Assembly: GCA_015711825.1 (NCBI GenBank)
Contig: JACVJD010000016.1
Coordinates: 1-42,166 of the forward strand
DNA from: Candidatus Solincola daggyaiensis
Lineage (GTDB): Bacteria; Actinomycetota; Geothermincolia; Geothermincolales; RBG-13-55-18
Direction of reading: 5' to 3'
DNA length: 42,166 nt
Part shown: positions 4,283-18,692 of the stretch, piece by piece
Position numbering within the stretch: position 1 is the first letter of the stretch
Layout of the letters: every line of letters starts with the position of its first letter
Made by a program: the position numbers and the translations under genes
The notes under the pieces: model-generated
The model's database searches: none
Seen by the model: the letters and a program-made list of their open reading frames with translations, nothing else
Told to the model about the DNA's origin: nothing

Positions 4283-4894
4283 TCAGCAGCATCCGCCCTG
4301 CGCTCCGTCGGCGCCGGAAGGCCCGGATGCGGACGGGCCGCAGCATGAAGATGCCTCCACACCCTCCCTCTCGCCGAGATACCTTTCGGCGAGCGCCAGC
4401 ATGTGGCGGGCCGGGCTGTCCTTCACCATCTGCGCCAGCTCCACGGCGCGGAACATATCCTCCTTGGAAACTCCCATCTTCCGTGCCTGGCTGAAATGGT
4501 GCTTGAAGCACGGCTCGCAGTTGGACGCGATCGCGGCCCCGATGGCCACCAGCTCGGCCACCGCCGGCGTGAACAGGCTCTCCCCCACCGCGTCCAGGCC
4601 CAGGCAGGCAGCCAGCTCTACCCGCGACGGGTAGGCGCCGCTGGCCACCACTTCGCCGTCCACCACCACCAGGGGCAAGGCCTCCTGGCCCTTTTCCGTA
4701 AGCAAGGAGCGGACCAAGTCGTCTTCGGCGAACGCGACGGGCGTCTGGGCGGGGTTGAACCTCTCGACCGCCACGCCCCGCTTTTCGAGCCACTTCAGGT
4801 CCGCGGCGAACCTCGCCAGCTCCGGGTCCACGCTCGGCCCGCAGACGCCCGTTGAGCAACACATGGGGGGATCATAGACTTTCACCGTCTTCAT
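4283..4894 (-). CDS. arsD: ArsD arsenite metallochaperone fused to an AhpD/CMD-like domain
   Basis: A 203-residue two-part protein. Residues 1 to about 100 are ArsD: YDPPMCCSTGVCG places cysteines at 12, 13 and 18, the exact positions that bind As(III) in known ArsD. ArsD normally passes arsenite to the ArsA ATPase. Residues from about 110 to 180 look like a carboxymuconolactone decarboxylase/AhpD domain, with the redox motif SNCEPCFKHH (CxxC-x3-H). The tail is Cys-rich, with CC pairs at SSCCG and GGCC. The ATG at 4894 was chosen over an upstream in-frame ATG because GAGGAAAA precedes it. No arsA is present; the neighbour is Acr3. The added domain could recycle thiols or reduce bound metalloid (inference). 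Confidence 0.88.
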   Translation of the reverse strand: MKTVKVYDPPMCCSTGVCGPSVDPELARFAADLKWLEKRGVAVERFNPAQTPVAFAEDDLVRSLLTEKGQEALPLVVVDGEVVASGAYPSRVELAACLGLDAVGESLFTPAVAELVAIGAAIASNCEPCFKHHFSQARKMGVSKEDMFRAVELAQMVKDSPARHMLALAERYLGEREGVEASSCCGPSASGPSGADGAQGGCC

Positions 4895-4940
4895 ATTTTC
4901 CTCCGCCTCTTTATTCGATCCATGCATTGAACACCTCTGC

Positions 4941-6128
4941 TCAGGCCGCCTCCTCCTGCGGCCCGGCCTCCGCCGGCACCCCGGCATGGCGCCGGTCTAT
5001 CCACCCCTTGGTCCTCTTGGCTATCCACACCAGGGAGAGCATGATGGGCACCTCCTCCAGCACCCCCACCACCGTGGCCAGGGCGGCGCCCGACTTCAGA
5101 CCGAAGAGGGATACCGCCACCGCCACCGCCAGCTCGAAGAAGTTGGAGGCGGCCACGAAACCGGCCGGGGCCGCCACCTCGAAGTTGATCCGCCACAGCC
5201 AGGCCCAGCCGTAGCTGAAGGCGAAGATGAAGTAAGTCTGGATGGTCAGGGGGATGGCGATAAGGATGATGTGCACCGGGTTCTCGATGATGGTCTTGCC
5301 CTGGTAGATGAAGAGGATGATCAGGGTGATGAGCAGGCTCACTACGGTGACGTTGCTCAGCTTCTTCAGGAACACGTTCTCGAACCAGTCGAGCCCCTTG
5401 CGCTTGATGAGCTGCTTGCGGGACACGTAGCCGAAGGTGAGCGGGATGACCACGAAGAGCACCACCGAGAGGATGACCGTGTCCCAGGGGATCTTTATGC
5501 CGGATACCCCCATGAGGAACACCACGATGGGAGCGTAGGCGAAGAGGATGATGGTGTCGTTGATGGCCACCTGGATGAGGGTGTAGGCGGGGTCTCCGTC
5601 GGCCAGGTAGCTCCAGACGAAGACCATGGCCGTGCAGGGTGCGGCCCCCAGCAGGATGGCCCCGGCCACGTATTCCTTGCCCAGGTCGTGGGGGATCCAG
5701 GCGCGGAATACGAACAGTAAGAAGAGGCTTGCGAATAGATACATGGTGAACGGCTTCACCAGCCAGTTGGATACCGTGGTCACCACGACCCCCTTGGGCT
5801 TTTTCCCCGCCTGCAGGATGCTCGCGAAGTCGATCTTGAGCATCATGGGGTAGATCATCAGCCAGATGAGCACGGCGATGGGCAGGGAGACCTGGGCGTA
5901 GGTGGCCTTTTCGAGGGCGTCGGCCGTCGCCGGGATGAAATAGCCGATGAGGGTGCCGATGACGATGCATATTATCACCCAGATGGAGAGGTAGCGGTCG
6001 AAGATGCTCATGTGCTTCTTCTCTCCCGCGCCCGCCTCGCAGGCCGCCTCGGAAGCAGCCGGGCCTGAGGCGCCGTTGACGCTCTGCGCGGAGGCGGGCT
6101 TGCGGTCTCCCGTGTTTTTACTGCTCAA
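4941..6128 (-). CDS. acr3: Acr3-family arsenite exporter
   Basis: About 395 residues, with ten predicted membrane helices starting at [14 protein letters not shown]. It carries the family motifs [21 protein letters not shown], with the conserved Cys needed for As(OH)3 export, and [12 protein letters not shown], with the conserved Glu. It exports arsenite across the cytoplasmic membrane using the proton gradient. I take the TTG at 6128 as the start because AAAGGAGGAG ends five bases upstream. An ATG 27 bases further up would place this site inside the coding region. This gives a 39-residue hydrophilic N-terminal extension rich in Ala and Ser before the first helix. An internal ATG at 6011 is the alternative start. 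It heads the arsenic operon, under a promoter that overlaps that of the divergent arsR. Confidence 0.92.
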
Positions 6129-6156
6129 CTGCTCCTCCTTTGCTCGCAATATCATA

Positions 6157-6208
6157 TTGACATATTTAGATATATGGTTATATTATTTGCGTAATAGCGC
6201 GTTGTCAA
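6157..6208. promoter_or_regulatory. Overlapping divergent promoters and ArsR operator candidate
   Basis: Plus strand (arsR): TTGACA 6157-6162, 16-base spacer, TATATT 6179-6184. Minus strand (acr3): TTGACA 6208-6203, 17-base spacer, TAATAT 6185-6180. The two -10 boxes overlap, so polymerase cannot occupy both. An inverted repeat CATAT-N6-ATATG at 6161-6176 lies within the plus promoter and just downstream of the minus -10, a good position for an ArsR operator controlling both directions. Confidence 0.8.
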
Positions 6209-6225
6209 GATTTGTGATCAGGGAT

Positions 6226-6594
6226 ATGAAAGCAAAGCCGTCAAGCTCATCGTGGAAAATCGCTTTAGCGCACGGCGGCGAGACATGCCCCGCCGGCAAG
6301 CGCCTGGAGCTTCCCGAGATCGACGAGCGGGCGATAGCGGAAGCGGCGGAGATACATAAGATGCTGTCGGACGAAACACGGCTGAAGATACTAGCATACC
6401 TGCAGGCGGGGGAGCTTTGCGTCTGCGATATCGTCGATGCCTTGGGAAAACCGCAATCCACCGTTTCCCACCACCTCTTCCTGCTGCAGAACGCCGGTTA
6501 TATAAAAGCGAGAAAACAGGGTCGCTGGAACATGTATTCCCTCAGCGACAAAGCGAAAGCGCACGGCGGCTCTTTTCTGGAAGCCGTCAGGTAA
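6226..6594 (+). CDS. arsR: ArsR-family arsenic-responsive repressor
   Basis: A 122-residue winged-helix regulator divergent from acr3. The core [16 protein letters not shown] is followed by the As(III)-type site [11 protein letters not shown], the recognition helix [17 protein letters not shown] and the wing RKQGRWNMY. This arrangement matches ArsR proteins that derepress arsenic operons when As(III) binds the CxC pair. The start is uncertain. ATG 6226 has only a close AGGG upstream, and an in-frame GTG at 6214 is the alternative. The N-terminal extension has one further cysteine (GETCPAG), which could complete a metal site. It probably represses both itself and acr3 through the shared operator region. 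Confidence 0.9.
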
Positions 6595-6680: not shown

Positions 6681-7013
6681 ATGAAGGAGAGTGGGGCGTC
6701 CCTGAAGGGTCGTAAGCTTGCGGCGGCCGCCATGGTGGAATACCAGGATGGCGCGGTGGTAAGCCGGGAGGTAGTGGGCGGGGAGAAAGGCTCGGTGACG
6801 GCCTTCGCGTTCGACAAGGGTCAAGGTTTGAGCGAGCATACCGCCCCCTTTGACGCCACGGTGCTGGTGCTGGACGGCGAGGCGGAGGTGAGGATCGCAG
6901 GGGAACCACTGCACCTGGCAAGGGGAGAGATGGTGATCATGCCGGCCGATGTGCCCCATTCCCTGCACGCCGTCGAGCGCTTCAAGATGCTGCTGATCAT
7001 GATCCGGGCCTGA
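6681..7013 (+). CDS. Cupin-domain protein
   Basis: A 110-residue single-domain cupin. Motif 1 is around GLSEHTAPFDATVLVLDGEA and motif 2 around LARGEMVIMPADVPHSLHA. Two histidines and a glutamate-rich barrel suggest a bound metal ion, though the usual GxxxxHxH is reduced to a single His in motif 1. GGAGGG precedes the ATG at 6681. It follows arsR after 86 bases on the same strand and may be cotranscribed. Small cupins of this kind are common in anaerobes and have no assigned reaction. A GC hairpin (AGGGGC 7021-7026 with GCCCCT 7033-7038) follows the stop and may help termination. A second, diverged small cupin lies at 15494-15802. Confidence 0.85.
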   Translation: MKESGASLKGRKLAAAAMVEYQDGAVVSREVVGGEKGSVTAFAFDKGQGLSEHTAPFDATVLVLDGEAEVRIAGEPLHLARGEMVIMPADVPHSLHAVERFKMLLIMIRA

Positions 7014-7245
7014 GGTTTCCAGGGGCCCCGCAGCCCCTCAATGAGATAGATGCATGCAAGCCGTATGGCCGATACCCGCAGGTCGGTTCCCCGGGCTACC
7101 ATAATTAATACATAAGAGCCAAATATTGCAACGCTTTCGGCTAAAAAATCAGACCGACAGAGACGCCGAAGCCAGGCTCGCTGCGTTCTTTACTTAAATA
7201 TCAGCGGCGGCAGGAGGATACCGGGGTCTTATGGATCATGGGAGA

Positions 7246-8121
7246 CTACGGCCTTGCCCTCAACACCAGGACCGGGACCTCGCTGTGGCTGACCACGCCC
7301 TCCGCCACCCCGCCGATCAATCTCTCCGGCAGGCGACGGTGCCCCAGCGCCCCCACCACGATGAGGGAGGCGCCGATCTCCCCCGCTACCCTTATGATGG
7401 TCGCGACCGGGCTCCCCTCCTCCAGCCGGGTTTCGACCATGCTGCAGCGGGGCTCCAGGCAGGAGGCGAGCTCGCGCAGCTTCTCCATCCTGCGCTCGGC
7501 CCTCTCTTCCCCGGCCATCGTCTCCAGGGCGCCCGCCCATTCGTCGCCCTCCTGTTGCACGTGCAGGAGGGTCACGTCGTCGCAACAGGTGGTGATCATC
7601 TCCTCAAGCAGGGGACGGACGCTCTCCGCGTAGGTGGAGAAATCGGTGGCGATGAGCACCTTCTCGAAGAGCAGCTCGCAGACCGCCTCGCAGCCAAACC
7701 CCTTGTCCTTCTCGTGGATCCTGCACTTGTGCACCATAACCGGCCGGTCGGCCAGCTTGAGCACTTTGCTGGTGACGCTCCCGGTGATCAAGCGCTCAAA
7801 GAACCCCGCCCCGTGTCCGCCGAGGTAGATAAGGGAGGCGCCGTCCTCTTCCGCCACGCGCAGGATCTCCTTCGCGGGGGGCCCGACCTCGATCTTCTCG
7901 CTGACCCTCAATCCCCCTACCTCGATGGAACGGACCAGGCGTTCGAGTTCTTTATGGGCATAGCTTCTCAACATGCCCTCGGCCATCTCGGCGTGCCTGG
8001 CATCTACCACGTAGAGCAGTGTCAATTCCTTCATCCCCGCCTGGATCAACTCCTCGACGCAGTTTAAAAGCCTCTCGGTGTACGGCGAAAAATCCACCGC
8101 GAAGAGAACCTTCTCGAACAT
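7246..8121 (-). CDS. Tandem-domain universal stress protein
   Basis: A 291-residue protein with two UspA domains. Domain 1 starts FEKVLFAVDFSPYTERLL and has GGHGAGFFERLITGSV; domain 2 starts FEKVLIATDFSTYAESV and has GALGHRRLPERLIGGVAE. Both retain the G-x2-G-x9-G pattern of ATP-binding Usps. I start at ATG 8121 because AGGAGGGATC directly precedes it; an upstream in-frame codon has no site. Cysteines are more frequent than usual (CRIHEKDKGFGCEAVCELL in the linker; TTCCDD in domain 2), which may mean redox or metal sensitivity. It lies 108 bases after DUF169 at the end of the ArsR-headed operon, mirroring the UspA at the end of the Acr3 operon. Confidence 0.92.
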   Translation of the reverse strand: MFEKVLFAVDFSPYTERLLNCVEELIQAGMKELTLLYVVDARHAEMAEGMLRSYAHKELERLVRSIEVGGLRVSEKIEVGPPAKEILRVAEEDGASLIYLGGHGAGFFERLITGSVTSKVLKLADRPVMVHKCRIHEKDKGFGCEAVCELLFEKVLIATDFSTYAESVRPLLEEMITTCCDDVTLLHVQQEGDEWAGALETMAGEERAERRMEKLRELASCLEPRCSMVETRLEEGSPVATIIRVAGEIGASLIVVGALGHRRLPERLIGGVAEGVVSHSEVPVLVLRARP

Positions 8122-8229
8122 GATCCCTCCTATACGGCTCGACCGGCGGATGCCCCGACCGCAACCGCCTTCCCGGCATGAAAACATGGGCTCCGGAGCG
8201 CGGTTTTCGCCTTCACCGCAAGGCCCGCC

Positions 8230-8961
8230 TCAATCCTCGCTGCGCTCGAGCAGCGCTTGATAGACGTTTTTCCCCCTCACGCGCGGCATGGCCTTTTCCC
8301 GCAGGGACGCGAGGGAATCCACGATATCGTCAAGGTATTTCGCCGGGAAACCGAGCACGCATTCTCCCTCCGCCAGGTCGGTGGCCTCGCGGCAACCGTA
8401 GCAGCCTATGGACATGTTCATGCGCTGCTGCACAAAGGGAGTGATGGTCACGTCCACGCAGGTGGCCTGGAGCACCGCGGTGTCGAAATGCAGCCTGCCC
8501 CCGGTCTTGAACACGTGGGCCAGCGCGATCCACATCAGGTGCTCGGCCAGGGACTCCACCACCACCACGTCGGGCTGGTGTTCCGCCTCCCCCAAGGGGC
8601 ATACGGACACCATCTTGTACCGGCCCATCTCCAGGCGCTGCATGGTGGAGAAGGTGTGCTGCACCGCTTCCGGGTTGCCGAATATCCCCATCGCCGCCGG
8701 CATCTCCCCGCTGGTTAGGCGAGGCGGGGGATCATCGAACCCCAGGGCCCACGCGGCGGCCGGGCACGCGATGTTCTCGGGAGTAAGCAGAACATGCTTG
8801 CCCTCCCTCGCCTCCATGAGCACCTGGCAGTATCGCCGCTTCTCCGGCAGGTCGTATCCCGGCAGGCGGACGAATTCCTCGTGGAACTTCACCGCCACCG
8901 GGCTGGTGGACATCCCCAGTATCTCCTTTATCAAGTTCGCTTTAACCTCCAACCCCGACAT
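8230..8961 (-). CDS. DUF169-family protein
   Basis: A 243-residue protein of the DUF169 family, soluble and of unknown biochemical function. Recognisable features are the opening VKANLIKEILGMSTSPVAVKF, RYCQVLMEAREGK, the invariant-looking CPAAAWALGFDDPP, and a C-terminal CYGCREATDLAEGE followed by VLGFPAKYLDDIV. The several cysteines could bind a metal or cofactor. DUF169 genes are frequent in anaerobes and archaea. The ATG at 8961 has GGAGATAGG upstream. It follows the split permease by 18 bases, so it is likely part of the same transport and redox operon. Confidence 0.85.
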   Translation of the reverse strand: MSGLEVKANLIKEILGMSTSPVAVKFHEEFVRLPGYDLPEKRRYCQVLMEAREGKHVLLTPENIACPAAAWALGFDDPPPRLTSGEMPAAMGIFGNPEAVQHTFSTMQRLEMGRYKMVSVCPLGEAEHQPDVVVVESLAEHLMWIALAHVFKTGGRLHFDTAVLQATCVDVTITPFVQQRMNMSIGCYGCREATDLAEGECVLGFPAKYLDDIVDSLASLREKAMPRVRGKNVYQALLERSED

Positions 8962-8979
8962 CTTCCTATCTCCAAAATA

Positions 8980-9567
8980 TCAACCGTCTGCCGCTTCAAT
9001 GGCTTCGTCAGGAGCCTCATAGCCGTGCTTGAAGAAAACCCTTCCTATAACCTCGCTTAAGGCCACCACCACCACCAGGGTGGTCAGATAGCGCACGAGC
9101 GTGAACTTCCAGCCCAGGAACTGGAACTCCATAAGCTCCGCGGGGAGCTTGATGCAAGCCCAGGCGGAAAGGAAGATGATGATGTTCGCGACCTTGGCGC
9201 CCTTTTTCAGCAGCACCGCCGCCAGCGGGAAGGCCACGTAGAGCGGTCCCATGGGGATGCTCCCCAGGATGAACGAAAGGATGACCCCCTTGACCCCTGA
9301 TCCCTCACCGAGAAACCTGACGATGAACTCCCTTTCCACCCATACGCTCACCAGGCCCATGATGATGAACACCGCGGGGAGGATTATGGCCATCTCCTTG
9401 AAATACTCCCAGGCCACGTGCCGTGCTTGACCGCCCTTATCGGGAAACGCGATCACCACGGCCACGAAGACGGGCGCGAGGAGGAAGAGCGCGGCGTAAT
9501 CCCACCGCATCCTCTTTCTCAGACTCCGCTTATTTCCGTCGGCCTCGGCGTTGCCGTTCCCGCTCAC
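8980..9567 (-). CDS. COG0701-type permease, second half-size subunit
   Basis: A 195-residue membrane protein with about five helices, resembling one half of a COG0701 (DUF318/ArsP-like) permease. Features include LPAVFIIMGLVSVWVEREF, the helix-break ILGSIPMGPLYVAFPLAAVLLKKGA and a final helix region LVVVVALSEVIG. The start is a GTG at 9567 overlapping the TGA of the preceding half by four bases (GTGA), so the two are translationally coupled and probably form a heterodimer. The substrate is unknown; relatives move arsenicals or other thiophilic compounds. Neighbours with CxxC and Cys-rich proteins support a thiol or metalloid substrate (inference). Confidence 0.82.
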   Translation of the reverse strand: MSGNGNAEADGNKRSLRKRMRWDYAALFLLAPVFVAVVIAFPDKGGQARHVAWEYFKEMAIILPAVFIIMGLVSVWVEREFIVRFLGEGSGVKGVILSFILGSIPMGPLYVAFPLAAVLLKKGAKVANIIIFLSAWACIKLPAELMEFQFLGWKFTLVRYLTTLVVVVALSEVIGRVFFKHGYEAPDEAIEAADG

Positions 9568-10049
9568 CTTATGATCACCCCAATCACCACTGCGATGGCT
9601 ATGGCGGCGGCAAAACTCAAGGCGTTCCTGGCGATGGCGAATCTCTTTCCCAGCTCCTTGATCTCCAGGGGGAGGAACACGAAACCCACCATGGTCAGGG
9701 TGGTGATGAAGGCCGCGGTGGCCATGATCCCCGCCCCCATGTCCAGCATGGACCTGGCCAGGGGAAAGGCGATGATCACCGGTATGAAGAGCACCGCCCC
9801 CAGGAGCGAGGCGATGGCCACCCCCAGCGCGCCGCTGTTCTGGCCGATCACCCGCGCGATCCACCTGGGGGGGACGAAGCCGATTATCAGTCCCACCACC
9901 AGAATAATGGCCAGGATGCTGGGCAGAAGCCTTAAAAACCCCTTATAGGCCACGCGAAGCGCGGCCGCCGTCTTCCTGCGATCCTTGACCACGCTCAGCA
10001 GCAACAGCACGCCGGTAAGTGCCAGGATGACCTCGGTGGTCAGGTCCAC
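9564..10049 (-). CDS. COG0701-type permease, first half-size subunit
   Basis: A 161-residue membrane protein with about four to five helices. It is the first half of a split permease. It contains LRLLPSILAIILVVGLIIGFVPP, GQNSGALGVAIASLLGAVLFIPVIIAFPLARSML (described by position: residues about 68-102) and a final helix ending VIGVIIR. The glycine-rich ASLLGAVLFIP equals the helix break of full-length COG0701 permeases. A GTG at 10049 follows GGAAGGGG. A full-length homologue is encoded three genes upstream (10868-11932), so the operon carries both a one-gene and a two-gene permease. They may be duplicates with different substrates. Confidence 0.82.
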   Translation of the reverse strand: MDLTTEVILALTGVLLLLSVVKDRRKTAAALRVAYKGFLRLLPSILAIILVVGLIIGFVPPRWIARVIGQNSGALGVAIASLLGAVLFIPVIIAFPLARSMLDMGAGIMATAAFITTLTMVGFVFLPLEIKELGKRFAIARNALSFAAAIAIAVVIGVIIR

Positions 10050-10086
10050 GCGACTTTCCCCTTCCTTTCCCGGTCCGTCGGCCCCG

Positions 10087-10410
10087 TCACAGGGCGTCTT
10101 CCAGGAAGTTGACGCAGGCGTCCTCGGGCTCGAAGAGGCCCGCCGCCACCTCCACCGCCTTGAGGGTCGCCGCGGGCACGATGCAGGAGTTGCGGCAGCA
10201 GTGCTCCGAGGCGGCGCGGTACACCGCCGTGTCCCGCATGGGCAGGGTCATCTCGCTGCCGGGGTTGACCTCATTGAGCGCCTCCGCCAGCCCCGCGATG
10301 TGCTCGCAGGAGGTCTCGAACTGCAGGGACACGGTGGTCCGGCCGCTCTTGCGGGCGGTGATCACCGTCTCCTTGCCGCATTGCCCGCCCTTCACGAAAA
10401 CGATGGCCAT
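10087..10410 (-). CDS. DUF6951-like small Cys-rich protein
   Basis: A 107-residue soluble protein with six cysteines. It opens MAIVFVKGGQCGKETVITA, continues with SLQFETSCEHIAGLAEAL, and has a cluster EHCCRNSCIVPAATLKAVEVAAG and EDACVNF. The pattern of a Cys early in the chain, a second after the beta-hairpin and a CC..C group matches small proteins placed in DUF6951 in databases, as I recall them. The function is unknown; cysteine spacing suggests metal or Fe-S binding. I start at ATG 10410 with GAGGACTGGAA ahead. It sits between the DGC protein and the split permease, each 30-40 bases away. Confidence 0.72.
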   Translation of the reverse strand: MAIVFVKGGQCGKETVITARKSGRTTVSLQFETSCEHIAGLAEALNEVNPGSEMTLPMRDTAVYRAASEHCCRNSCIVPAATLKAVEVAAGLFEPEDACVNFLEDAL

Positions 10411-10442
10411 TTCCAGTCCTCTCCCGCCCCGGCCCGCGACTC

Positions 10443-10829
10443 CTATTCCTGCTTTGCCGCCAGGGCTTCCTCGATGCGGCGCTTGACGTCCGCTTTGATC
10501 CTGTCCTTCTCCGCCTCGTCGTAGGTGAGCACCGGGGCCTTCTTCACCCCGTAATCCTCCACCATCTCCACCCGGATGTCCGGCTTGCGGCCGGAGTGTT
10601 CCTCCACGATCTTGGAGCAGCACATCACCGGGCAGCCCTCGATGATCACGAAGAGCTCCGCCCCCGCGATCTTGCCCAGGCCGGTGTCCTTGTCGATGGC
10701 CACCGCGGGCAGGCATACCAGGTGGTAGTCCTCGTTCTCGTTCACCAGTTCCGTGGCCACCGCCCCGGCCAGTTGCCCGGTGTTGGCGGCGCCGTAACAA
10801 GTGGCGATGACAACCTTGAACTCCGCCAT
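10443..10829 (-). CDS. DGC-domain putative zinc-binding protein
   Basis: A 128-residue protein of the DGC family (putative zinc-binding, PF08859-like). It starts KVVIATCYGAANTGQLAGAVA, has HLVCLPAVAIDKDTGLGKI in the middle, and the diagnostic segment IIEGCPVMCCSKIVEEHSG. The family takes its name from Asp-Gly-Cys, and here the Asp is Glu. It has a ferredoxin-like or Rossmann-like fold in relatives; the biochemical role is unsettled. ATG 10829 has AGGAGGAAGAG directly upstream. It is the gene after the full-length permease, a frequent pairing with thioredoxin-like CxxC proteins and permeases. Confidence 0.85.
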   Translation of the reverse strand: MAEFKVVIATCYGAANTGQLAGAVATELVNENEDYHLVCLPAVAIDKDTGLGKIAGAELFVIIEGCPVMCCSKIVEEHSGRKPDIRVEMVEDYGVKKAPVLTYDEAEKDRIKADVKRRIEEALAAKQE

Positions 10830-10867
10830 CTCTTCCTCCTTTTCTCTTCCGTTCCTACAACCTTTTC

Positions 10868-11932
10868 CTACTTTGCGAACATCCCGAAGACGTATCCCGT
10901 GAGCATGGCGAAGACGCACACCAGCAGGATATATGTGCCGGCTTTCTTGAAGCCCATGATGCGGATGAGCACGATCATGCTGGGCAGGGACAGCGCCGGC
11001 CCCGCGAGCATCAGGGCCAGGGCGGGCCCTCTGCCCATGCCCAACTCCAGGAGGCCCTTGACGATGGGCACCTCGGTGAGGGTGGCGAAGTACATCAGGG
11101 CGCCGGACACGGAGGCGATGGCGTTCCCGCCGATGGTGTTGCCGCCCACGTAGCGGGCGATCACGTCCGAGGGGATAAGCTCCTTGACCACGCCCACCAG
11201 GAAGACCCCGACCAGCAGCACGGGCAGGATCATCTTCACCATGCGCCAGGTCTCGGAGAACCAGGTCTTTATCTCCTCGCGCGTGAACCAGCGCTTCACG
11301 ATGTAGATGACCAGGGCGACGAGGAGTATCTCCCCCGCGTATTTGATGATGGTGGGCATCTTCGCCGTGCCGTAAACCAGGATGGCGATCATGGCTCCGA
11401 AATAGATGAGGTTCTGGTAGCCCGGCCTCACCCTGCCGTCGTCGTAGGCGAAGGCCTCGGCGTCCTCGGCCGATTTGACCCTGGCGGCTTCCTGCTTGTG
11501 GAAGACGGCGGCCATGATGAGGCCGATGACGAAGGCGAATCCCACCGCGCCCACGATACGGGCGATCCCCAGGTCGTATCCCAGCAGGTTCATGGAATAG
11601 GTCATGGCCAGGATGTTGATGGCCGGGGAGGAATAGAGGAAGGCGATGGCCGGCCCCAGGCCCGCCCCCTTCTCGCGGATGCCGGTGAAAAGGGGGAGCA
11701 CGGTGCAGGAGCAGACGGCGAGGATGGCGCCGGACACCGAGGCCACCGAGTAGGCCAGGCCCTTGTTGGTCTTCGGCCCGAAGTAACGCATCACCGCCGC
11801 CGTGTTCAGGAACGCGGTGATGGCCCCGGCGATGAAGAAGGCCGGGATGAGGCAGAAGAGCGTATGCTGGGCCACGTAATCTACCAGGGTGCGCAAGCCC
11901 TCCATCATCAGTCCGCCGAAGGTCATTTTCAT
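10868..11932 (-). CDS. COG0701 (DUF318/ArsP-like) full-length permease
   Basis: A 354-residue membrane protein with about eight to ten helices in two homologous halves. Half 1 contains ASVSGAILAVCSCTVLPLFTGI, whose CSC and Pro-Leu motif is the family hallmark; half 2 contains ASVSGALMYFATLTEVPIVKGL at the equivalent place. A cytoplasmic linker with acidic residues (SAEDAEAFAYDDGRV) joins them. Relatives include ArsP, an exporter of trivalent organoarsenicals, and permeases of unknown substrate. The CSC cysteines could touch a soft-metal substrate. ATG 11932, GTG 11935 and ATG 11926 are close start alternatives behind GGGAAG. It lies downstream of an ArsR gene and a CxxC protein gene, fitting metalloid export (inference). 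Confidence 0.88.
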   Translation of the reverse strand: MKMTFGGLMMEGLRTLVDYVAQHTLFCLIPAFFIAGAITAFLNTAAVMRYFGPKTNKGLAYSVASVSGAILAVCSCTVLPLFTGIREKGAGLGPAIAFLYSSPAINILAMTYSMNLLGYDLGIARIVGAVGFAFVIGLIMAAVFHKQEAARVKSAEDAEAFAYDDGRVRPGYQNLIYFGAMIAILVYGTAKMPTIIKYAGEILLVALVIYIVKRWFTREEIKTWFSETWRMVKMILPVLLVGVFLVGVVKELIPSDVIARYVGGNTIGGNAIASVSGALMYFATLTEVPIVKGLLELGMGRGPALALMLAGPALSLPSMIVLIRIMGFKKAGTYILLVCVFAMLTGYVFGMFAK

Positions 11933-12204
11933 CACTTCCCGTTTATGCTATTTACTTCCTGCAACCCCTATCCCGTTGCGATGCCGCGTATCTTCCCTCC
12001 GCACCGCTGTCCCGAAAAGCGGGAATATGCCTTTTCCGCCGGTACGGACGCCGCCGCCTATACCCTCCCGCATGGTCCGGGAACGGCTTGAACCGGACGC
12101 CGAAAAAATCGTTTCTCAGGCTCGCGCCCAGTCTCGTGTTCCCGGATCGCCACGCTCCCGCTCCGCCGTGCTCCGGTCTCCCGCCTGCCCCGTTCCCGGG
12201 CAGG
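11933..12204. other. Intra-operon gap with hairpin
   Basis: About 270 bases between the thioredoxin-like gene and the permease. No gene seen. A hairpin TCCCG-AAAAG-CGGGA lies at about 12010-12024 and could act as an RNA-processing or stabilising element. No clear promoter, so cotranscription across the gap is assumed but not shown. Confidence 0.35.
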
Positions 12205-12438
12205 TCAGGACTGCAACCAGCTCCGGATCTCCTTTTTGTCCGGCACCTTTCCCTTGGAGACCACCTTGCCGTCGATGACCACGCCGGGGGTGGTGAGGAC
12301 GTTGTACTTCATGATCTCGCCCATCTCCGTGACCTCGTCCACCTGGATATCCAGACCCAGCTCCTCCACCACCTGCCGGATGGCCTCCTTGGTGGCCTTG
12401 CACTTCTTGCACCCCGGTCCCAGTACCTTGATCTCCAT
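12205..12438 (-). CDS. Small thioredoxin/glutaredoxin-like redox protein (CxxC)
   Basis: A 77-residue protein of the redox-active disulfide protein 2/thioredoxin_3 family. It has MEIKVLGPGCKKCKATKEAI, giving the active-site pair C10-x2-C13, and the cis-Pro loop NVLTTPGVVIDGKVV. It acts in the cytosol as a small disulfide reductant or thiol carrier. ATG 12438 follows GAGGTGAGAG; a GTG three codons upstream is less likely. Homologues are commonly encoded next to COG0701 permeases, as here, where it may deliver a thiol-bound substrate or keep transporter cysteines reduced (inference). Confidence 0.92.
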   Translation of the reverse strand: MEIKVLGPGCKKCKATKEAIRQVVEELGLDIQVDEVTEMGEIMKYNVLTTPGVVIDGKVVSKGKVPDKKEIRSWLQS

Positions 12439-12489
12439 CTCTCTCACCTCGCTTTTGTTAAGGCTCCGACTTTTTCTCTTACCCGGCCC

Positions 12490-13008
12490 TTACAGACCGA
12501 GTTCGCGCAGTTTCTCCAGCTTTTCCTCCATTCCCTCCTCGAGCAGGGGAGGGCAATCCTCGATCTCCTTCTCGCCCTCCACGACCTTCGCGGCGAAGGC
12601 CATGCAGGAAGCCATGCCGCACCTGCCGCAGTTGGTGCGGGGCAGGAAGCGCAGGATGTCCAGGAGCTTCGGCGGTACCCTCGTGGTATGGTCGGGCGTG
12701 ATCTGTTCCCTTTTCTCCCAGATGTCGTTTATGAAATCCACCGCCTTTTTCGCCGTCCTCTCAGCGTGCTTGCGGTCTTTCAGGGGTTTTATGTTGATGG
12801 CATTACGCTGCAGCGAATACTTGTACACGCCGTCTCCCCACACCAGCGCGGGTGCCTTGGGCTGGTAAAAACCGTTCTTCACCGCGGCGTTGACGTAGGG
12901 CATCACCGGCGCGAGGTCCACGTCCGTCTTGACTATGGCCACCCAGATGGGAGACCCCGGGTCGCATGGGGGCGAGAACATCTCCAGCTCGTAGTGGTTG
13001 ATAAGCAT
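12490..13008 (-). CDS. Fe-S cluster (PF04060-type) domain protein
   Basis: A 172-residue protein. The N-terminal 120 residues (opening MLINHYELEMFSPPCDPGSP) do not match a family I know. The C-terminal part has RFLPRTNCGRCGMASCMAFAAKV, then ending in DCPPLLEE. That is the four-Cys [4Fe-4S] domain found in RnfB, corrinoid Fe-S proteins and related redox proteins. The ATG at 13008 is preceded by AGGTAAAGAGAG. It lies between the small coupled protein of the ArsR operon and the CxxC protein. A role in electron supply to the CxxC protein or a metalloid-reducing step is possible, not shown. Confidence 0.82.
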   Translation of the reverse strand: MLINHYELEMFSPPCDPGSPIWVAIVKTDVDLAPVMPYVNAAVKNGFYQPKAPALVWGDGVYKYSLQRNAINIKPLKDRKHAERTAKKAVDFINDIWEKREQITPDHTTRVPPKLLDILRFLPRTNCGRCGMASCMAFAAKVVEGEKEIEDCPPLLEEGMEEKLEKLRELGL

Positions 13009-13063
13009 CTCTCTTTACCTGCTTTCGTTTCTCGGCTTCCTCCCGGCTCACGTGGTCCGGCGA

Positions 13064-13282
13064 TCAACCTCCGGCGCTCTTCTTCCCCGTGACGATCTCG
13101 CCCTGATTGGGGTGGTACGATTCCTCGAACACAGGCACGCAGTGGGGAAGGTCCGCTTCCTTCACCTTTTTCTCCAGCACGTCGCGGATGAAGGCCAGCG
13201 CTTCGTCCCGGTCCTCGTCGGTCAGGATGCGCTTGATGCGGATGAGTTCCTCCTCGCCGAAGGAAACGGCTATCTTCTTCAT
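13064..13282 (-). CDS. Small acidic-basic helical protein, paralogue of 14799-14999
   Basis: A 72-residue soluble protein with no family that I know. The N-terminal 45 residues form a predicted helical block, EEELIRIKRILTDEDRDEAL, nearly repeated in the small protein at 14799-14999 (EDELIWLKRIITDQDREEAL). The C-termini diverge. The ATG at 13282 overlaps the ArsR stop in an ATGA, so translation is coupled to the regulator. The heptad-like charge pattern suggests oligomerisation. Coupling to ArsR suggests a modulator or partner of the regulator or of the downstream Fe-S protein, which is a guess. Confidence 0.8.
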   Translation of the reverse strand: MKKIAVSFGEEELIRIKRILTDEDRDEALAFIRDVLEKKVKEADLPHCVPVFEESYHPNQGEIVTGKKSAGG

Positions 13283-13692
13283 CCTCTTTTCCCTCCTCGC
13301 CCGTTCGCCTCGCTACCCTGCCCAGCTCGCGCCACCGATGCAGGCGCGCAACACGCCGCTTCCGGTCCTTCTCCGGCTTCGCCCCGGTGGCCGAGATAGC
13401 GCAGAAATATCTCCGTGAGCTCCCCGAGTCTCGCCTCCGCCACCGCATAGTACGAAGACGTCCTCTCCTTCCTCGCCTTCAGAAAACCGGCTTCTTTGAG
13501 CACGCTGAGGTGGTGTGAGGCCAGTTGCTGCGAGATGCCGAGCTCCCTTTCCACCTCGCACACGCAGCGCTCCCCCATGAAGAGCAGGCAGATGATGCGC
13601 AGGCGGTTTGGGTCGGACAGGACCTTCAGCCCCTCCGCGAGTTCCACTATTCCGGGATCCGCAGCACATTTAAGCGCTTGCCCTTCGGCCAT
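13279..13692 (-). CDS. arsR: ArsR-family regulator heading the permease operon
   Basis: A 137-residue winged-helix repressor. It has LAEGLKVLSDPNRLRIICLL, the candidate metal site ERCVCEVERELG (CxC), the recognition helix SQQLASHHLSVLKEAG and the wing RKERTSSYYAV. The C-terminal tail is unusual: acidic, Gly-rich, with ACCAP, giving extra cysteines as found in some ArsR sensors. The ATG at 13692 lies about 40 bases after the start of transcription predicted from a perfect promoter. The stop overlaps the next start (ATGA). As the first gene of a nine- or ten-gene operon it is the obvious autoregulator. Confidence 0.92.
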   Translation of the reverse strand: MAEGQALKCAADPGIVELAEGLKVLSDPNRLRIICLLFMGERCVCEVERELGISQQLASHHLSVLKEAGFLKARKERTSSYYAVAEARLGELTEIFLRYLGHRGEAGEGPEAACCAPASVARAGQGSEANGRGGKRG

Positions 13693-14059
13693 CTCTCCAA
13701 CCTTTCACCAATATATGTTTGTACTAATCGCTGTTTTTGATTATAAGGGTCTTCCTGTGCTTGTCAATGAGCTTCGTATGTTCCCGTCGGAACATCGCAA
13801 TCACGAGGGCGTCCGGCCTAGACCGGACGTCTTAACCAGATGGGACGTCCGGAAAAGGGCATGAAACGCGCCGTCTTTCCGTCATAATCCTTCCCTGGCA
13901 GGTCATGCGAGGAGGAGGGGAGAGAGAACCATATAGCGGGATTATTAATTCCCATTATAACCCTAATAATATTGTATAATATGTATGCCACTTGGAAACC
14001 GGAGCATTCTACCGGCAGTCTGGATCGAACACCGTTGCAGCGAGCCTTAAGGAGGTATG
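13693..14059. other. Divergent regulatory region with several dyads
   Basis: No gene. From left to right it holds the minus-strand promoter (13740-13767) and the inverted repeat ATGTTCC-N4-GGAACAT at 13778-13795. Next come GTCCGG-N6-CCGGAC at 13811-13828 and a third GTCCGG near 13847. Further right, ATTATA (13954-13959) pairs with TATAAT (13975-13980). That TATAAT is a likely -10 for the plus-strand gene at 14060; its -35 is poor, as expected for an activated or regulated promoter. Confidence 0.6.
13740..13767 (-). promoter_or_regulatory. Consensus promoter of the ArsR-permease operon
   Basis: On the minus strand TTGACA (13767-13762), 16-base spacer, TATAAT (13745-13740): both hexamers are perfect. 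Transcription would begin near 13733, giving a leader of about 40 bases to the ArsR ATG. A partly symmetric AATATATGTTTGTACTAAT stretch lies in the leader and could be the ArsR operator. Confidence 0.8.
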
Positions 14060-14434
14060 ATGCAGGTAAGTGAGGCAATGCAGAGGTCCATTGACGCCTT
14101 GGCGGCGCTTCCGGGCTATATCTGCCACGGGTTGGTGAACTACCGCAAGGGCGTTTCCGCCCTCAACGAGGACTCCGATCCTCAGGACGAAGCCAATTAT
14201 TTTCCCCAGCAATGCACGGCCATCATCCAAACCCTGGAGAAGTCGCTGCAGAACCTCGACGGAGGCGCGCCCGACAAACTGATGGTGGAGTCGTCCAAGA
14301 TGACCATGATGATCTATCCCGTGAACGACACCTATTTCTGCGGGGTGGGGCTCATGCCCGGAACCCCCACGGAAGACGCGGCTCGCATCCTCGAGGAGCT
14401 GCGAGGAGCGTTCCGGGACCAGCTCTCCGGCTAA
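14060..14434 (+). CDS. Protein of unknown function, possibly roadblock/LC7-like
   Basis: A 124-residue soluble protein. I cannot assign it firmly. The pattern resembles roadblock/LC7 folds: an N-terminal helix, LPGYICHGLVNYRKGV, a long central helix TAIIQTLEKSLQNL, the strands DKLMVESSKMTMMIYPVND and TYFCGVGL, and a final helix AARILEELRGAF. Such proteins act as small GTPase regulators or scaffolds in bacteria, but no GTPase is adjacent. AAGGAGGT lies right before two tandem ATGs; the second (14060) gives the better spacing. It is first on the plus strand, divergent from the ArsR operon and sharing its control region. Confidence 0.65.
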   Translation: MQVSEAMQRSIDALAALPGYICHGLVNYRKGVSALNEDSDPQDEANYFPQQCTAIIQTLEKSLQNLDGGAPDKLMVESSKMTMMIYPVNDTYFCGVGLMPGTPTEDAARILEELRGAFRDQLSG

Positions 14435-14798: not shown

Positions 14799-14999
14799 GT
14801 GAGAAGGATGTCTTTGAACCTAGATGAGGACGAGCTGATCTGGCTGAAGCGGATCATCACCGACCAGGACCGGGAGGAGGCCCTGGCCTTCGTCAACAAG
14901 ATCCTCAAGCCCTGCGTTAAGGAGGCTGAGCGCCCCACGGGGCTGCAGAGGACCTTCGACGCGGGGGGTCCGCCGGGACAGATCGGCGCCCCACGTTAG
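14799..14999 (+). CDS. Small helical protein, paralogue of 13064-13282
   Basis: A 66-residue protein. The start is a GTG at 14799, five bases after GGGAGG, and not the ATG four codons later. With the GTG it aligns from its first residue with the paralogue, MKKIAVSFGEEELIRIKRI against MRRMSLNLDEDELIWLKRI. Both continue into TD(E/Q)DR(D/E)EALAF. The C-terminal 20 residues are Gly/Pro-rich and unrelated. The role is unknown. One copy is coupled to ArsR, this one precedes arsC by 36 bases, so the family appears tied to arsenic or metalloid genes in this genome. Confidence 0.75.
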   Translation: MRRMSLNLDEDELIWLKRIITDQDREEALAFVNKILKPCVKEAERPTGLQRTFDAGGPPGQIGAPR

Positions 15000-15035: not shown

Positions 15036-15437
15036 ATGGGCGAGAAGAAGGTGCTGTTCGTATGCGGTGAGAACGCCGCCCGCAGCCAGATGGCCGAGGC
15101 CATATTCAACCACCTGGCGCGAGAATGGCGCGCGGAGAGCGCCGGGACCCTCCCGGGAATAGAGGTGAACCCCTTGGCCGTCCAGGCCTTGGCCGAGGAG
15201 GGCTTGGACATCTCCGCCAACGTTCCCAAATCACTGGACCTCGAGCGCCTGGACGATTTCGAGCGCATCATCTCCTTCGGCTGCATCGTGAAGAGCGTGT
15301 TCCCGGCGCGCGACCGCCTGGAGGAATGGCCGCTGCCTGACCCCGGCAAGGGGGACCTGGAGATGATGCGCGCCACGCGGGACGAGATCAAGCGCCTGGT
15401 ATCGGCCTTGGTCGAGGAGCTGGAGGGGAGGGCCTGA
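15036..15437 (+). CDS. arsC: LMW-phosphatase-type arsenate reductase (ArsC)-like protein
   Basis: A 133-residue member of the low-molecular-weight phosphatase/ArsC family. The P-loop is VCGENAARSQMAEAIF, with catalytic C10 and R16 (CX5R), and the general acid region is WPLPDPGKGD. Thioredoxin-coupled ArsC enzymes reduce As(V) with three cysteines (about 10, 82, 89). Here C83 is present (SFGCIVKSVFP) but the third is missing. Electrons may therefore come through another thiol, as in mycothiol- or glutathione-linked enzymes, or the protein may be a phosphatase. GAGAGG precedes the ATG. The neighbourhood (Acr3, ArsD, three ArsR) favours an arsenic role. Confidence 0.85.
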   Translation: MGEKKVLFVCGENAARSQMAEAIFNHLAREWRAESAGTLPGIEVNPLAVQALAEEGLDISANVPKSLDLERLDDFERIISFGCIVKSVFPARDRLEEWPLPDPGKGDLEMMRATRDEIKRLVSALVEELEGRA

Positions 15438-15493: not shown

Positions 15494-15802
15494 TTATGCC
15501 CTTGGGGGCACCTGGATGCCGAGGATCCTCGCGCCTTCCTCGCTGCGCATGGAGAACAGCGCCGGCTCCGAGATCAGGCACCACCCTTCGTCAAGCGCCG
15601 CCTCCTCCCCGTTCACCTTCACCACCGCTTTCCCCGAGACGACGGCGAAGACGACGTTCGAGGCCATCTCGCAAGGCGGTATCACTCCTCCGGCCGGAAG
15701 CGAGATGATCCTCGCCGTGAATTCCCGTGAGCGATGGATGACGTTCTTCTCCCTCTCCTCGAAGGTATGCGCCTCCATGGCCATAAGGTCGAACACCTTC
15801 AT
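15494..15802 (-). CDS. Cupin-domain protein
   Basis: A 102-residue single cupin. It starts MKVFDLMAMEAHTFEEREKNV; the barrel includes ISLPAGGVIPPCEMASNVVFAVVSG (two half-motifs lacking the usual HxH) and ALDEGWCLISEPALFSM. With the metal-binding histidines lost it may bind a small ligand without metal or act structurally. ATG 15802 follows AAAGGAG by six bases; an ATG eight codons upstream has no site. It is divergent from the padR-like gene and convergent with arsC, so it may be a target of the PadR regulator. Confidence 0.82.
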   Translation of the reverse strand: MKVFDLMAMEAHTFEEREKNVIHRSREFTARIISLPAGGVIPPCEMASNVVFAVVSGKAVVKVNGEEAALDEGWCLISEPALFSMRSEEGARILGIQVPPRA

Positions 15803-15826
15803 GTCAAACTCCTTTCCCTTCACCAT

Positions 15827-15943
15827 GCGGGAAATTGACCCGCCATCCTCGACAAGACATTATTTTTTGAATATTATCATATTGATAGTATTATTAGTAT
15901 AGAAGTATTTGAGATTGCAGATTACGTAAAGGAGATGTTTCAC
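15827..15943. promoter_or_regulatory. AT-rich divergent control region with TATCA-TAT-TGATA dyad
   Basis: Between the cupin and padR-like genes. A perfect inverted repeat TATCA (15875-15879), TAT, TGATA (15883-15887) lies in a very AT-rich stretch. TTGATA (15882-15887) can serve as a -35 for the PadR gene. The dyad is the natural operator candidate for autoregulation, although it does not look like the ATGT-N8-ACAT sites of classical PadR. Confidence 0.55.
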
Positions 15944-16360
15944 ATGTGCGGGCGTAGCGATTTAGGCCATGGCTGCTGCGAGGGGAATCACGCCGACTCT
16001 GCGGCGGGAAACCGGAGATCCTGCGGCTGCGGCGGCAATATCCCCCACCACTTCATCCTGCCGGCCATACTGCTCCTGCTGGACCAGGAGCCCTCACACG
16101 GGTATTCCCTGCTGCGCAAGCTTTCCGACCTGGGCATCGCCGAGTCGGGCATGAGCCCCGCCACCGTCTATCGCATACTCTCCAGGCTGGAGGGGGAGGG
16201 GCTCGCCGTCCACGAGCACGCCGACGACGGCCAAGGCCCGACCCGCAAGGTGTACTCGCTGACCGACGAGGGGAGAGAGGCCCTCGCCGAGTGGAGGTCC
16301 CACATCGAGAGGACCCGCAAGCTCCTGGACTGGTTCACCGCGGGAGGCTCGCGTGGCTAG
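15944..16360 (+). CDS. PadR-family regulator with Cys/His-rich N-terminus
   Basis: A 138-residue transcription factor. The core is a PadR winged helix: ILPAILLLLDQEPSHGYSLL, LSPATVYRILSRLEGEGL with M in place of the first L, and RKVYSLTDEGREALAEW. The C-terminal helix is short (class II type). Before the core lies a stretch of about 33 residues, MCGRSDLGHGCCEGNH and SCGCGGNIPHHF, with five cysteines and several histidines, a likely metal or Fe-S site. ATG 15944 is nine bases from AAAGGAG; an ATG nine bases earlier touches the site. The next two genes on this strand are an ABC exporter, the probable target. Confidence 0.88.
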   Translation: MCGRSDLGHGCCEGNHADSAAGNRRSCGCGGNIPHHFILPAILLLLDQEPSHGYSLLRKLSDLGIAESGMSPATVYRILSRLEGEGLAVHEHADDGQGPTRKVYSLTDEGREALAEWRSHIERTRKLLDWFTAGGSRG

Positions 16361-16405
16361 CCGGGGGCTGGCCGGGAGGCTTTCCCCTGCGAGCCGGCCT
16401 CGCCC

Positions 16406-17416
16406 GTGCTGTGTTCGGACTCGCCGCTTAAGGGGGTGGCGGGCATAACCGCGCGCGATGACTTTTCCGCCATCGAGGTAAGGGAACTGCGCAAACGCTA
16501 CGGCGATATGACGGCCGTTGACGGCATCTCCTTCCGGGTCGAGCCGGGCGAGCTTTTCGGGTTCCTCGGACCCAACGGGGCAGGCAAGACCACCACGGTG
16601 AACATCCTCACCGGCGTGTCCCTTCCCACGGCGGGCTCCGCTTCCGTTTTCGGCCACGACGTGGTGAAGGACCCCTTCCGCGCCAGGGAGGCGATAAACG
16701 TCGTGCCTGAGGTCTCCAACGCCTACCCCGAGTACACGGCCTGGAGCAACCTCATGTTCACCGCTTCTCTCTACGGCGTGCACCGCGGAGAGGCGGAGCA
16801 AAGAGCGGAGGAGTTGCTGCGCGCCTTCGGCCTCCACGACAAGCGCAAGGTGAAGGTCAAGGGGTTCTCCCAGGGGATGAGACGTAAGCTGGTCATCGCC
16901 ATGGCCCTTATCAACCGGCCCAGAGTGCTGTTTATGGACGAGCCCACTACCGGTCTGGACGTGCAGAGCGTCCTCTCCATCCGCGAGATGGTGCGCGACC
17001 TCAACCGCAGCGGCATCACCATATTTCTCACCACCCATAACCTCAACGAGGCCAACATCCTCTGCGACCGCGTTGCCATCATCAACCGCGGCAAGATCGT
17101 GGCCATCGACACCCCGGAAAACCTCAAGAGCGCCGCACGCCGGGTGCAGGCGGTGGAGGTGTCTTTCGACCGCATGTCCCCGGAAACGGAGGTTGAGGTG
17201 GCTTCCCTGGCGGGGATCAAGGAGGTCTCCCGGCGGGGGGACAAGCTGCGCCTGCTCACCGACGACCCTTCTGCCGCGGTGTCCGCGCTCGCCCGCTTCG
17301 CGGGAGAAAGGTATCTGGCAATATCTTACATCAACACGCCCGGTCCGAGCCTGGAGGATGTCTTCATTCAGCTCACCGGGACAGGAACGTCCACGAGCCG
17401 GGGGGGAGATAGATGA
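16406..17416 (+). CDS. ABC transporter ATP-binding protein (DrrA/NatA type)
   Basis: A 336-residue ATPase of a drug or ion exporter. It has Walker A GPNGAGKTT, Q-loop PEVSNAYPEY, signature FSQGMRRKL (SQGMRR variant), Walker B VLFMDEPTTGLD and H-loop TTHNL. A C-terminal extension of about 100 residues (from VQAVEVSFDRMSP) is typical of DrrA-like proteins. The start is uncertain: GTG 16406 has no clear site, and an in-frame GTG at 16436 behind TTAAGGGG is possible. The stop overlaps the permease start (ATGA). With the PadR gene upstream it resembles PadR-controlled efflux units; the substrate is unknown. Confidence 0.92.
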   Translation: MLCSDSPLKGVAGITARDDFSAIEVRELRKRYGDMTAVDGISFRVEPGELFGFLGPNGAGKTTTVNILTGVSLPTAGSASVFGHDVVKDPFRAREAINVVPEVSNAYPEYTAWSNLMFTASLYGVHRGEAEQRAEELLRAFGLHDKRKVKVKGFSQGMRRKLVIAMALINRPRVLFMDEPTTGLDVQSVLSIREMVRDLNRSGITIFLTTHNLNEANILCDRVAIINRGKIVAIDTPENLKSAARRVQAVEVSFDRMSPETEVEVASLAGIKEVSRRGDKLRLLTDDPSAAVSALARFAGERYLAISYINTPGPSLEDVFIQLTGTGTSTSRGGDR

Positions 17417-18180
17417 TCGCCGAGGCCCTGTCCCCGGAGAGGCTGGGCAAAGAGCTCCGCCGCGCCCTGGTGATAGCGGGCAAGGACATACGCATCTACT
17501 GCCTCAAGCCGCCGGTGCTGCTCTTCGGACTGGTCTTTCCCTTCTTCCTCTTCTTGGCCTTCTTCGTGGGGAAAAGGGGGCCGATCGAGGAGGGGATACC
17601 CGGGCTGATATGTATCTCGGTGTTCTTCGCCTCTTCGAACATCGCCCCTGCCGGCATGCCCTTCGAGAGGATGACCAAAACCTTCAGCCGTTACCTCTCC
17701 GCCCCCCTCTCCCTTACCTGGATGGTCTTCGGCAAGACCCTGGCCGGGTTCTTCTTCGGTGTGGCGGTCTCCGTCATCCCATTGCTGGTGGGGATCATCG
17801 GTTATGGAACCAGCGTCACCTCACCCGGCCTGCTCATCCTGGCCTTGCTCGCGGGCGGCATGTGCTTCTCCTGCCTGGGAACGCTGGTGGGATCCATGCC
17901 TACCGAGGCGCCGGGAAACGCCATGACCGTGCTCAACTTCGTGCGCCTACCCCTGCTTTTTATGAGCGGCATCTTCGTCACCCTGGAGGAGATGCCCGCC
18001 TGGGCGCGCGGGCTGGCGGCGGTCTCCCCCCTCACCTACGCCAACGACCTATTGCGCCGCGGCACGGGGTTCGCGGGGTACTACGGCTGGTGGCTTGACC
18101 TGCTGGTGCTGCTCCTCTACGCAACCGCTTTCTTCTTCATCGCCGCCTGGATCTTCAACCTCTCCCGCCGCCGCTCGTGA
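17413..18180 (+). CDS. ABC-2 type permease
   Basis: A 255-residue integral membrane protein with about six helices. It is the permease partner of the preceding ATPase (four-base overlap). It has the N-terminal amphipathic segment ALVIAGKDIRIYCLKPPVLL, a helix FGLVFPFFLFLAFFVG, the inter-helix AGMPFERMTKTFSRYLSAPLS, and the ABC-2 hallmark MSGIFVTLEEMPAWARGLAAVSPLTYANDLLR near the end (given by position: about residues 180-212). The pair would form a homodimeric exporter of two ATPases and two permeases. Its substrate could be an antibiotic, lipid or metal-thiolate; nothing in the sequence decides. Confidence 0.92.
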   Translation: MIAEALSPERLGKELRRALVIAGKDIRIYCLKPPVLLFGLVFPFFLFLAFFVGKRGPIEEGIPGLICISVFFASSNIAPAGMPFERMTKTFSRYLSAPLSLTWMVFGKTLAGFFFGVAVSVIPLLVGIIGYGTSVTSPGLLILALLAGGMCFSCLGTLVGSMPTEAPGNAMTVLNFVRLPLLFMSGIFVTLEEMPAWARGLAAVSPLTYANDLLRRGTGFAGYYGWWLDLLVLLLYATAFFFIAAWIFNLSRRRS

Positions 18181-18600: not shown

Positions 18601-18692
18601 TGGCGGAGAGGGTGGGATTCGAACCCACGGAACCCCGCGAAGGGCTCAACGGTTTTCGAGACCGCCCCATTCGTCCGCTCTGGCACCTCTCC
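18601..18692 (-). tRNA. tRNA-Ser (anticodon CGA)
   Basis: Read on the minus strand it begins GGAGAGGTGCCAGAGCGG and ends CCTCTCCGCCA. The acceptor stem GGAGAGG/CCTCTCC is perfect, the discriminator is G as expected for serine, and CCA is encoded. The anticodon loop CTCGAAA gives CGA, reading UCG. The long variable arm (CCC-TTCGC-GGG) is the class II feature of tRNA-Ser, and the T arm is GTGGG-TTCGAAT-CCCAC. Length 92 bases including CCA. Confidence 0.96.

Follow-up and report, generated by a model that had tools for sequence, protein, structure and literature searches.

Contig JACVJD010000016.1 of Candidatus Solincola daggyaiensis (Actinomycetota, class Geothermincolia) was analysed over its entire 42,166 nucleotides, here called the window; the contig belongs to a 3.0-Mb draft genome. 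Open reading frames and family searches define eleven minus-strand genes that run from a promoter at 13767 to position 7246. They encode an ArsR repressor; a 72-residue orphan; a [4Fe-4S] protein; an ArsE-family thioredoxin; a full-size ArsP-type permease; DGC-domain and DUF6951 proteins; two half-size permeases, PermA and PermB (together permAB); a DUF169 protein; and a double universal stress protein (Usp). An initial annotation of this DNA, made from its letters alone, had listed the same genes, and the searches bear out every family that it named, including the "DUF6951-like" product, a true member of PF22263 (Table 1). Its statement that the gaps are short holds for nine of the ten (−4 to 108 nucleotides, with permB overlapping permA by 4). 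The gap between arsE and the full-size permease gene is 272 nucleotides; it shrinks to 37–57 in three of ten relatives measured, and is 37 in the G254 locus, which has the same architecture including Usp and the flanking genes. (G, L, and C numbers denote genomes, loci, and contigs.) We take the eleven genes to be one operon. An Rfam scan found no riboswitch above the gathering score, and one tRNA (18604-18692).

Table 1. Features of the operon and its surroundings in the window
Feature	Position	Strand	Basis and remarks
Promoter, TTGACA-N16-TATAAT	13740..13767	−	12/12 consensus bases
Putative operator copy 1	13723..13738	−	AAAAACAGCGATTAGT; equals ACAAAYNNNNATTRGT with 1 mismatch
Putative operator copy 2	13707..13722	−	ACAAACATATATTGGT; exact match to ACAAAYNNNNATTRGT, head-to-tail with copy 1
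ArsR repressor	13279..13692	−	PF01022 (HTH_5) 57.7 bits; Cys9, Cys43-Val-Cys45
72-aa protein, no known family	13064..13282	−	Paralogue at 14808-14999
172-aa [4Fe-4S] protein	12490..13008	−	PF04060 61.7 bits
ArsE/MTH895-family thioredoxin-like protein	12205..12438	−	TIGR00412 106.3 bits, cut-off 62; CxxC
Full-size ArsP_1 permease	10868..11932	−	PF03773 268 bits, cut-off 32.3; Cys-Ser-Cys motif; possible starts GTG 11935, ATG 11926
DGC-domain protein	10443..10829	−	PF08859 65.7 bits; Cys11, 39, 66, 70 invariant
DUF6951 protein	10087..10410	−	PF22263 87.6 bits, above cut-off; Cys11, 35, 76 invariant
PermA, half-size ArsP_1-like permease	9564..10049	−	30.3 bits, just under 32.3 cut-off
PermB, half-size ArsP_1-like permease	8980..9567	−	40.9 bits, above cut-off; possible start ATG 9510
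DUF169 protein	8230..8961	−	PF02596 190.8 bits
Double Usp	7246..8121	−	PF00582 160.9 bits
ArsD metallochaperone fused to AhpD/CMD (carboxymuconolactone decarboxylase-type) domain	4283..4987	−	NF033727 124 bits, cut-off 90
Acr3 arsenite exporter	4941..6155	−	TIGR00832 385 bits, cut-off 282.8
Second ArsR	6004..6594	+	PF01022; true start probably downstream of 6004
Cupin protein	6681..7013	+	PF07883
125-aa protein, no family	14057..14434	+	Homologue at equivalent place in L070
Paralogue of 72-aa protein	14808..14999	+	
ArsC-like protein, low-molecular-weight phosphatase family	15036..15437	+	PF01451

The promoter, initially called perfect, indeed matches the consensus throughout; the two other promoter-like matches within 7000-14100 reach only 9/12, and in relatives, too, arsR is preceded by promoters of this sort. 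Immediately after the −10 box, between it and arsR, sits a twin 16-bp repeat of ACAAAYNNNNATTRGT (13738-13707), each copy an imperfect dyad. As a correction to the leader dyad first proposed as the ArsR target, the relevant element is probably this tandem repeat. At first scoring, a copy with zero or one mismatch was found in nine of 11 upstream regions, window included; correcting a gene start in L101 lowers its count from six mismatches to one and makes this ten of 11, leaving L106, whose best copy has three. In most of the 11 regions a second copy lies exactly 16 bp away. Shuffled upstream regions reach zero or one mismatch in 0.2% of trials, and the window has two matches against 0.10 expected from shuffling, figures that are optimistic because the pattern was drawn from these same regions after inspection. 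The cleaner test is the whole-genome count: with up to three mismatches the double site occurs once, and never in the reversed control. Two GC-rich palindromes noted by eye upstream of the promoter (13810-13835 and about 13775-13795) are not evident in the relatives' upstream regions.

The repressor scores 81.6 bits against NF033788 (cut-off 55), which places it in the ArsR/SmtB type. All 11 aligned ArsRs from operons of the same type share an N-terminal Cys and Cys-Val-Cys. These three thiols suit trivalent arsenic, and the protein may well sense an arsenical.

Conservation among relatives was read from 32 listed loci, of which 27 contain a full-length permease; the five without one are excluded, as are matches in G243 and G221 and the split matches of G249 and G147:C93. 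Locus labels come from in-house hidden Markov models (HMMs) built on these same loci, which separate permA poorly from permB, and the following figures are raw tallies without a random-gene control, with some misses caused by contig ends. ArsE adjoins the permease in every one of the 27. ArsR is near in 23, Acr3 lies within 8 kb in 18, and ArsC is present in 12; DGC and the iron-sulfur (FeS) protein are each found in 11, permAB in nine (one a weak match, L189), and DUF6951 and Usp in five apiece.

Gene order, whose absence among relatives the initial annotation had named as grounds for doubt, is kept. Within the class the series ArsR-small protein-FeS-ArsE-permease is maintained, mostly with DGC next, and then comes either DUF6951-permA-permB(-DUF169-Usp) or ArsR-Acr3. 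Among Actinobacteriota that are less closely related, permease and ArsE are paired within short ars operons, ArsR-(ArsC)-permease-ArsE-Acr3. Three of these loci, L197-L199, read ArsR-ArsC-permease-ArsE-Acr3-(Usp)-permAB, with Usp in L198 and L199 only. Locus L192 reads ArsR-permease-ArsE-DGC-Trx-CcdA-ArsM-Acr3 (DGC 96.2, ArsE 109, ArsM 352, and Acr3 393 bits, all above cut-offs). Beyond the phylum, Leptolinea has ArsR-ArsE-permease and Acetoanaerobium has ArsR-permAB-ArsR-permease-ArsE. Evidence at that distance is thin because the genome scan used lineage-specific peptides; its nine loci all fall in Actinomycetota or its candidate genera.

These features suggest, with a probability of roughly 0.7, that the genes form an ArsR-controlled arsenic detoxification operon, accessory to the acr3, arsD, and arsC-like genes that flank it as neighbours on other transcripts. 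The initial annotation had proposed ArsR-controlled export of a thiol-bound metalloid or sulfur compound. The permease-thioredoxin pair, found in ars operons with Acr3, ArsC, and once ArsM, narrows this to arsenic, and the sulfur option finds little support. Quite probably the substrates are trivalent arsenicals. For the full-size permease, methylarsenite in particular is favoured, at slightly less than even odds, because Acr3 already handles inorganic arsenite and the genome encodes ArsM (363 bits, cut-off 263); arsenite itself is a possible substrate.

Several observations weigh against an arsenic function. Nine of the 27 permease loci lack a strong Acr3 within 8 kb, and contig ends explain some of these, not all. 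The wider DGC, DUF6951, FeS, and permAB families also occur away from arsenic genes. Two short-operon ArsRs (L197, L198) lack the N-terminal Cys while keeping Cys-Val-Cys. ArsM is present in 13/15 permease-bearing and 8/16 permease-less genomes of the class, a loose link (Fisher p 0.054, kinship uncorrected). For genomes with and without the DGC-bearing operon, ArsM is present in 10/10 against 11/21 (p 0.012); since the genomes are related, this is not used as proof. Moreover, the full-size permease falls below both NCBIfam transporter equivalog cut-offs tried.

This last point bears on the strongest alternative, in which a soft metal other than arsenic (copper, zinc, antimony, bismuth, or lead) is exported, as proposed for the SO_0444 permease branch, and the operon merely travels with ars genes. 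The SO_0444 Cu/Zn efflux model NF033936 is the permease's best NCBIfam match, yet at 117.5 bits it stays far from its cut-off of 300 (SaoE model NF040736: 104.8 against 325). An N-terminal Cys with CxC could also bind Cd, Pb, or Bi, for which CadC is the precedent; the permease's frequent companions, however, are Acr3 and ArsC, and once ArsM. Another soft metal is accordingly an unlikely cargo, and arsenic the preferred one.

The full-size permease retains Cys-Ser-Cys in all ten aligned proteins. PermA and PermB, by contrast, share no Cys conserved throughout ten aligned pairs, so the two permease versions of the initial annotation do not embody a single thiol chemistry. Elsewhere permAB occurs with PadR-like regulators (contig C38 of the same genome, and Niallia, by eye), with ArsR or another helix-turn-helix regulator (Acetoanaerobium, Thermococcus), and in Peptoclostridium near selenium-molybdenum genes. 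It is a separate module that accompanies ars genes in at least two cases: in the window operon and in L197-L199. A set adjoining permAB in L025 resembles one at 15494-18180 of the window (cupin, PadR regulator, ABC ATPase, and ABC-2 permease).

Conserved cysteines number four in DGC (12/12 aligned proteins), three in DUF6951 (10/10), and three in DUF169 (5/5, only one of the five clearly distant). A structure model of DGC is unusable (mean pLDDT 41, from four near-identical sequences), and among plasmids no match was found for either the DGC or the DUF6951 protein. A DUF169 gene of Desulfovibrio linked to nitrate resistance (PMC4001038) was set aside; the available portion of that report describes a different kind of cluster. 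In genomes of the class, a lipoate-ligase-like gene accompanies DGC proteins, of which one carries a fused GcvH-like domain (L080:725-3250, L077:1131-3160, L078:2546-4901, L079:7993-10426, and L076:3572-6029). The set recurs in G068, G122, G247, G090, and G144, although the ligase-like gene was not found in L077, nor by HMM in G122. In G144 it adjoins FeS, ArsC, and ArsE genes (L076); in L078 and L079 it lies near ArsR-Acr3-ArsE.

The FeS protein is best described in two parts. An AlphaFold model (mean pLDDT 85, from an alignment of seven sequences) places residues 1-99 close to TATA-binding protein (TBP; 2z8u, VIA-align Z 10.7, 88 residues, rmsd 2.3, with many TBP entries tied). Residues 112-171 fit the cluster domain in the large subunit of the corrinoid iron-sulfur protein (CFeSP), with Z 9.6 and rmsd 1.2 A over 56 residues. 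Foldseek with the same model returned no match at E ≤ 0.001, its top TBP row being weak (E 0.077). The sequence agrees for the second part: NF003195, the CFeSP large-subunit model, matches residues 116-167 only (62.3 bits, cut-off 306), and the corrinoid-binding domain is absent. The protein models as an N-domain that may be TBP-like, followed by a CFeSP-type cluster domain. Resemblance of fold is no evidence of function, and the mechanism proposed below draws on the cluster domain alone, for electron transfer. Most homologues with about 40-48% identity (L107-L118) have no other operon gene in the stretch read, exceptions being L111, with acr3 (order acr3-arsM-FeS, L111:604-3177, G144), and L115, with an ArsR-like gene. 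Taken together, the FeS family does not mark arsenic loci. Homologues of the 72-residue protein adjoin ArsR in ars loci L025 and L106.

Movement of sulfur or selenium compounds, or thiol repair, with arsenic genes nearby by chance or because arsenic harms thiols, has two observations in its favour: in Acetoanaerobium L067 a distant FeS homologue neighbours a desulfurase-like class-V aminotransferase, and on C14 the FeS paralogue neighbours a Se/S carrier-like protein. The arsenic-type Cys set of ArsR and the repeated Acr3/ArsC/ArsM linkage across families make this very improbable. By eye, from translations, DUF6951 adjoins corrinoid proteins and UroD-like methyltransferases in L020:10771-15040 and L019:2714-5539. 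(The L020 region also holds an ASKHA-type activator, and in L022 DUF6951 sits beside DGC-like and OsmC-like proteins, both by eye.) Together with the CFeSP-like cluster domain, this neighbourhood might suggest that DUF6951 and the FeS protein perform reductive or corrinoid-linked chemistry, such as demethylation, on methylated arsenicals before export, a scheme given little chance by the lack of any corrinoid protein or methyltransferase in the window operon and the presence of DUF6951 in only five of the 27 permease loci.

For the preferred arsenic detoxification operon, the observed gene content, order, conservation, operator, and conserved cysteines allow a scheme of binding, electron flow, and transport. 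A trivalent arsenical would bind ArsR at the site formed by the N-terminal Cys and Cys-Val-Cys; ArsR would then leave the twin operator, which overlaps the transcription start, and the operon would be expressed. Electrons from the [4Fe-4S] protein could maintain ArsE, through its dithiol, and other thiols in the reduced state. DGC, DUF6951, and perhaps DUF169 may hold the arsenical and pass it on to be exported, presumably by the full-size permease through its Cys-Ser-Cys. PermAB would be a second transporter recruited into the operon. A bolder version, less probable than not, is that an undescribed arsenical relay of anaerobes is built from DGC, DUF6951, DUF169, and the TBP-like [4Fe-4S] protein: FeS electrons would keep ArsE reduced, the three- and four-Cys carriers would load methylarsenite or arsenite directly onto the Cys-Ser-Cys permease, and permAB would export a companion species. 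If so, the relay would have a second form in sister genomes, where DGC is joined with GcvH domains of the lipoate type next to ars genes.

In several relatives, too, the ArsC-like gene points away from the operon as a divergent neighbour. A second ars cluster, on contig C14 of the same genome (L120:5208-10200), holds ArsR, a thioredoxin, an ArsF/ArsG fusion, a 122-residue protein, a Se/S carrier-like protein, an FeS paralogue, and ArsE.

Oxygen-free handling of trivalent and methylated arsenic is poorly known; ArsI and ArsH provide oxidative routes, which would be of little use to anaerobes. From its context, the operon offers a function for DGC, DUF6951, DUF169, and the TBP-like FeS protein, four families so far uncharacterised, and for the 72-residue orphan. 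With one promoter and a twin operator whose position is defined, it is also a site for testing arsenic sensing. A literature search, confined to search listings with few subscription journals, returned no work on DGC, DUF169, or DUF6951 in arsenic handling. These three and the FeS protein are candidate new arsenic proteins.

How does the operon compare with known systems? With the CFeSP large subunit the FeS protein shares the [4Fe-4S] domain, as both its sequence and its structure model indicate; it is 172 residues long rather than about 442, with a putative TBP-like domain in place of the corrinoid-binding part. The SaoE and SO_0444 permease branches are related to the full-size permease, both models matching at the sub-cut-off scores given above. 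ArsEFG, a system for roxarsone and nitarsone cited in PMC9144182, shares the ArsE-family thioredoxin, here above its cut-off; no ArsF or ArsG is reported among the window operon genes, and the genome's ArsF/ArsG fusion is on C14. Other described ars operons, in the excerpts available, share a disulfide protein proposed as a redox partner, and arsP is common among them; the electron route proposed there leads to ArsC, and those excerpts are silent on DGC, DUF6951, DUF169, and the FeS protein. Also among the closest are the ArsP-bearing ars operons of the Campylobacter jejuni type, where ArsP exports methylarsenite and not arsenite, according to the available portion of that work (PMC6205960). 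The likeness, at family level, is that ArsR, Acr3, and a PF03773-type permease share one arsenic locus. The window permease differs in having its own ArsE partner together with DGC, DUF6951, permAB, DUF169, Usp, and FeS genes. The locus is best read as an expanded ars operon, of a kind already known and of new composition.

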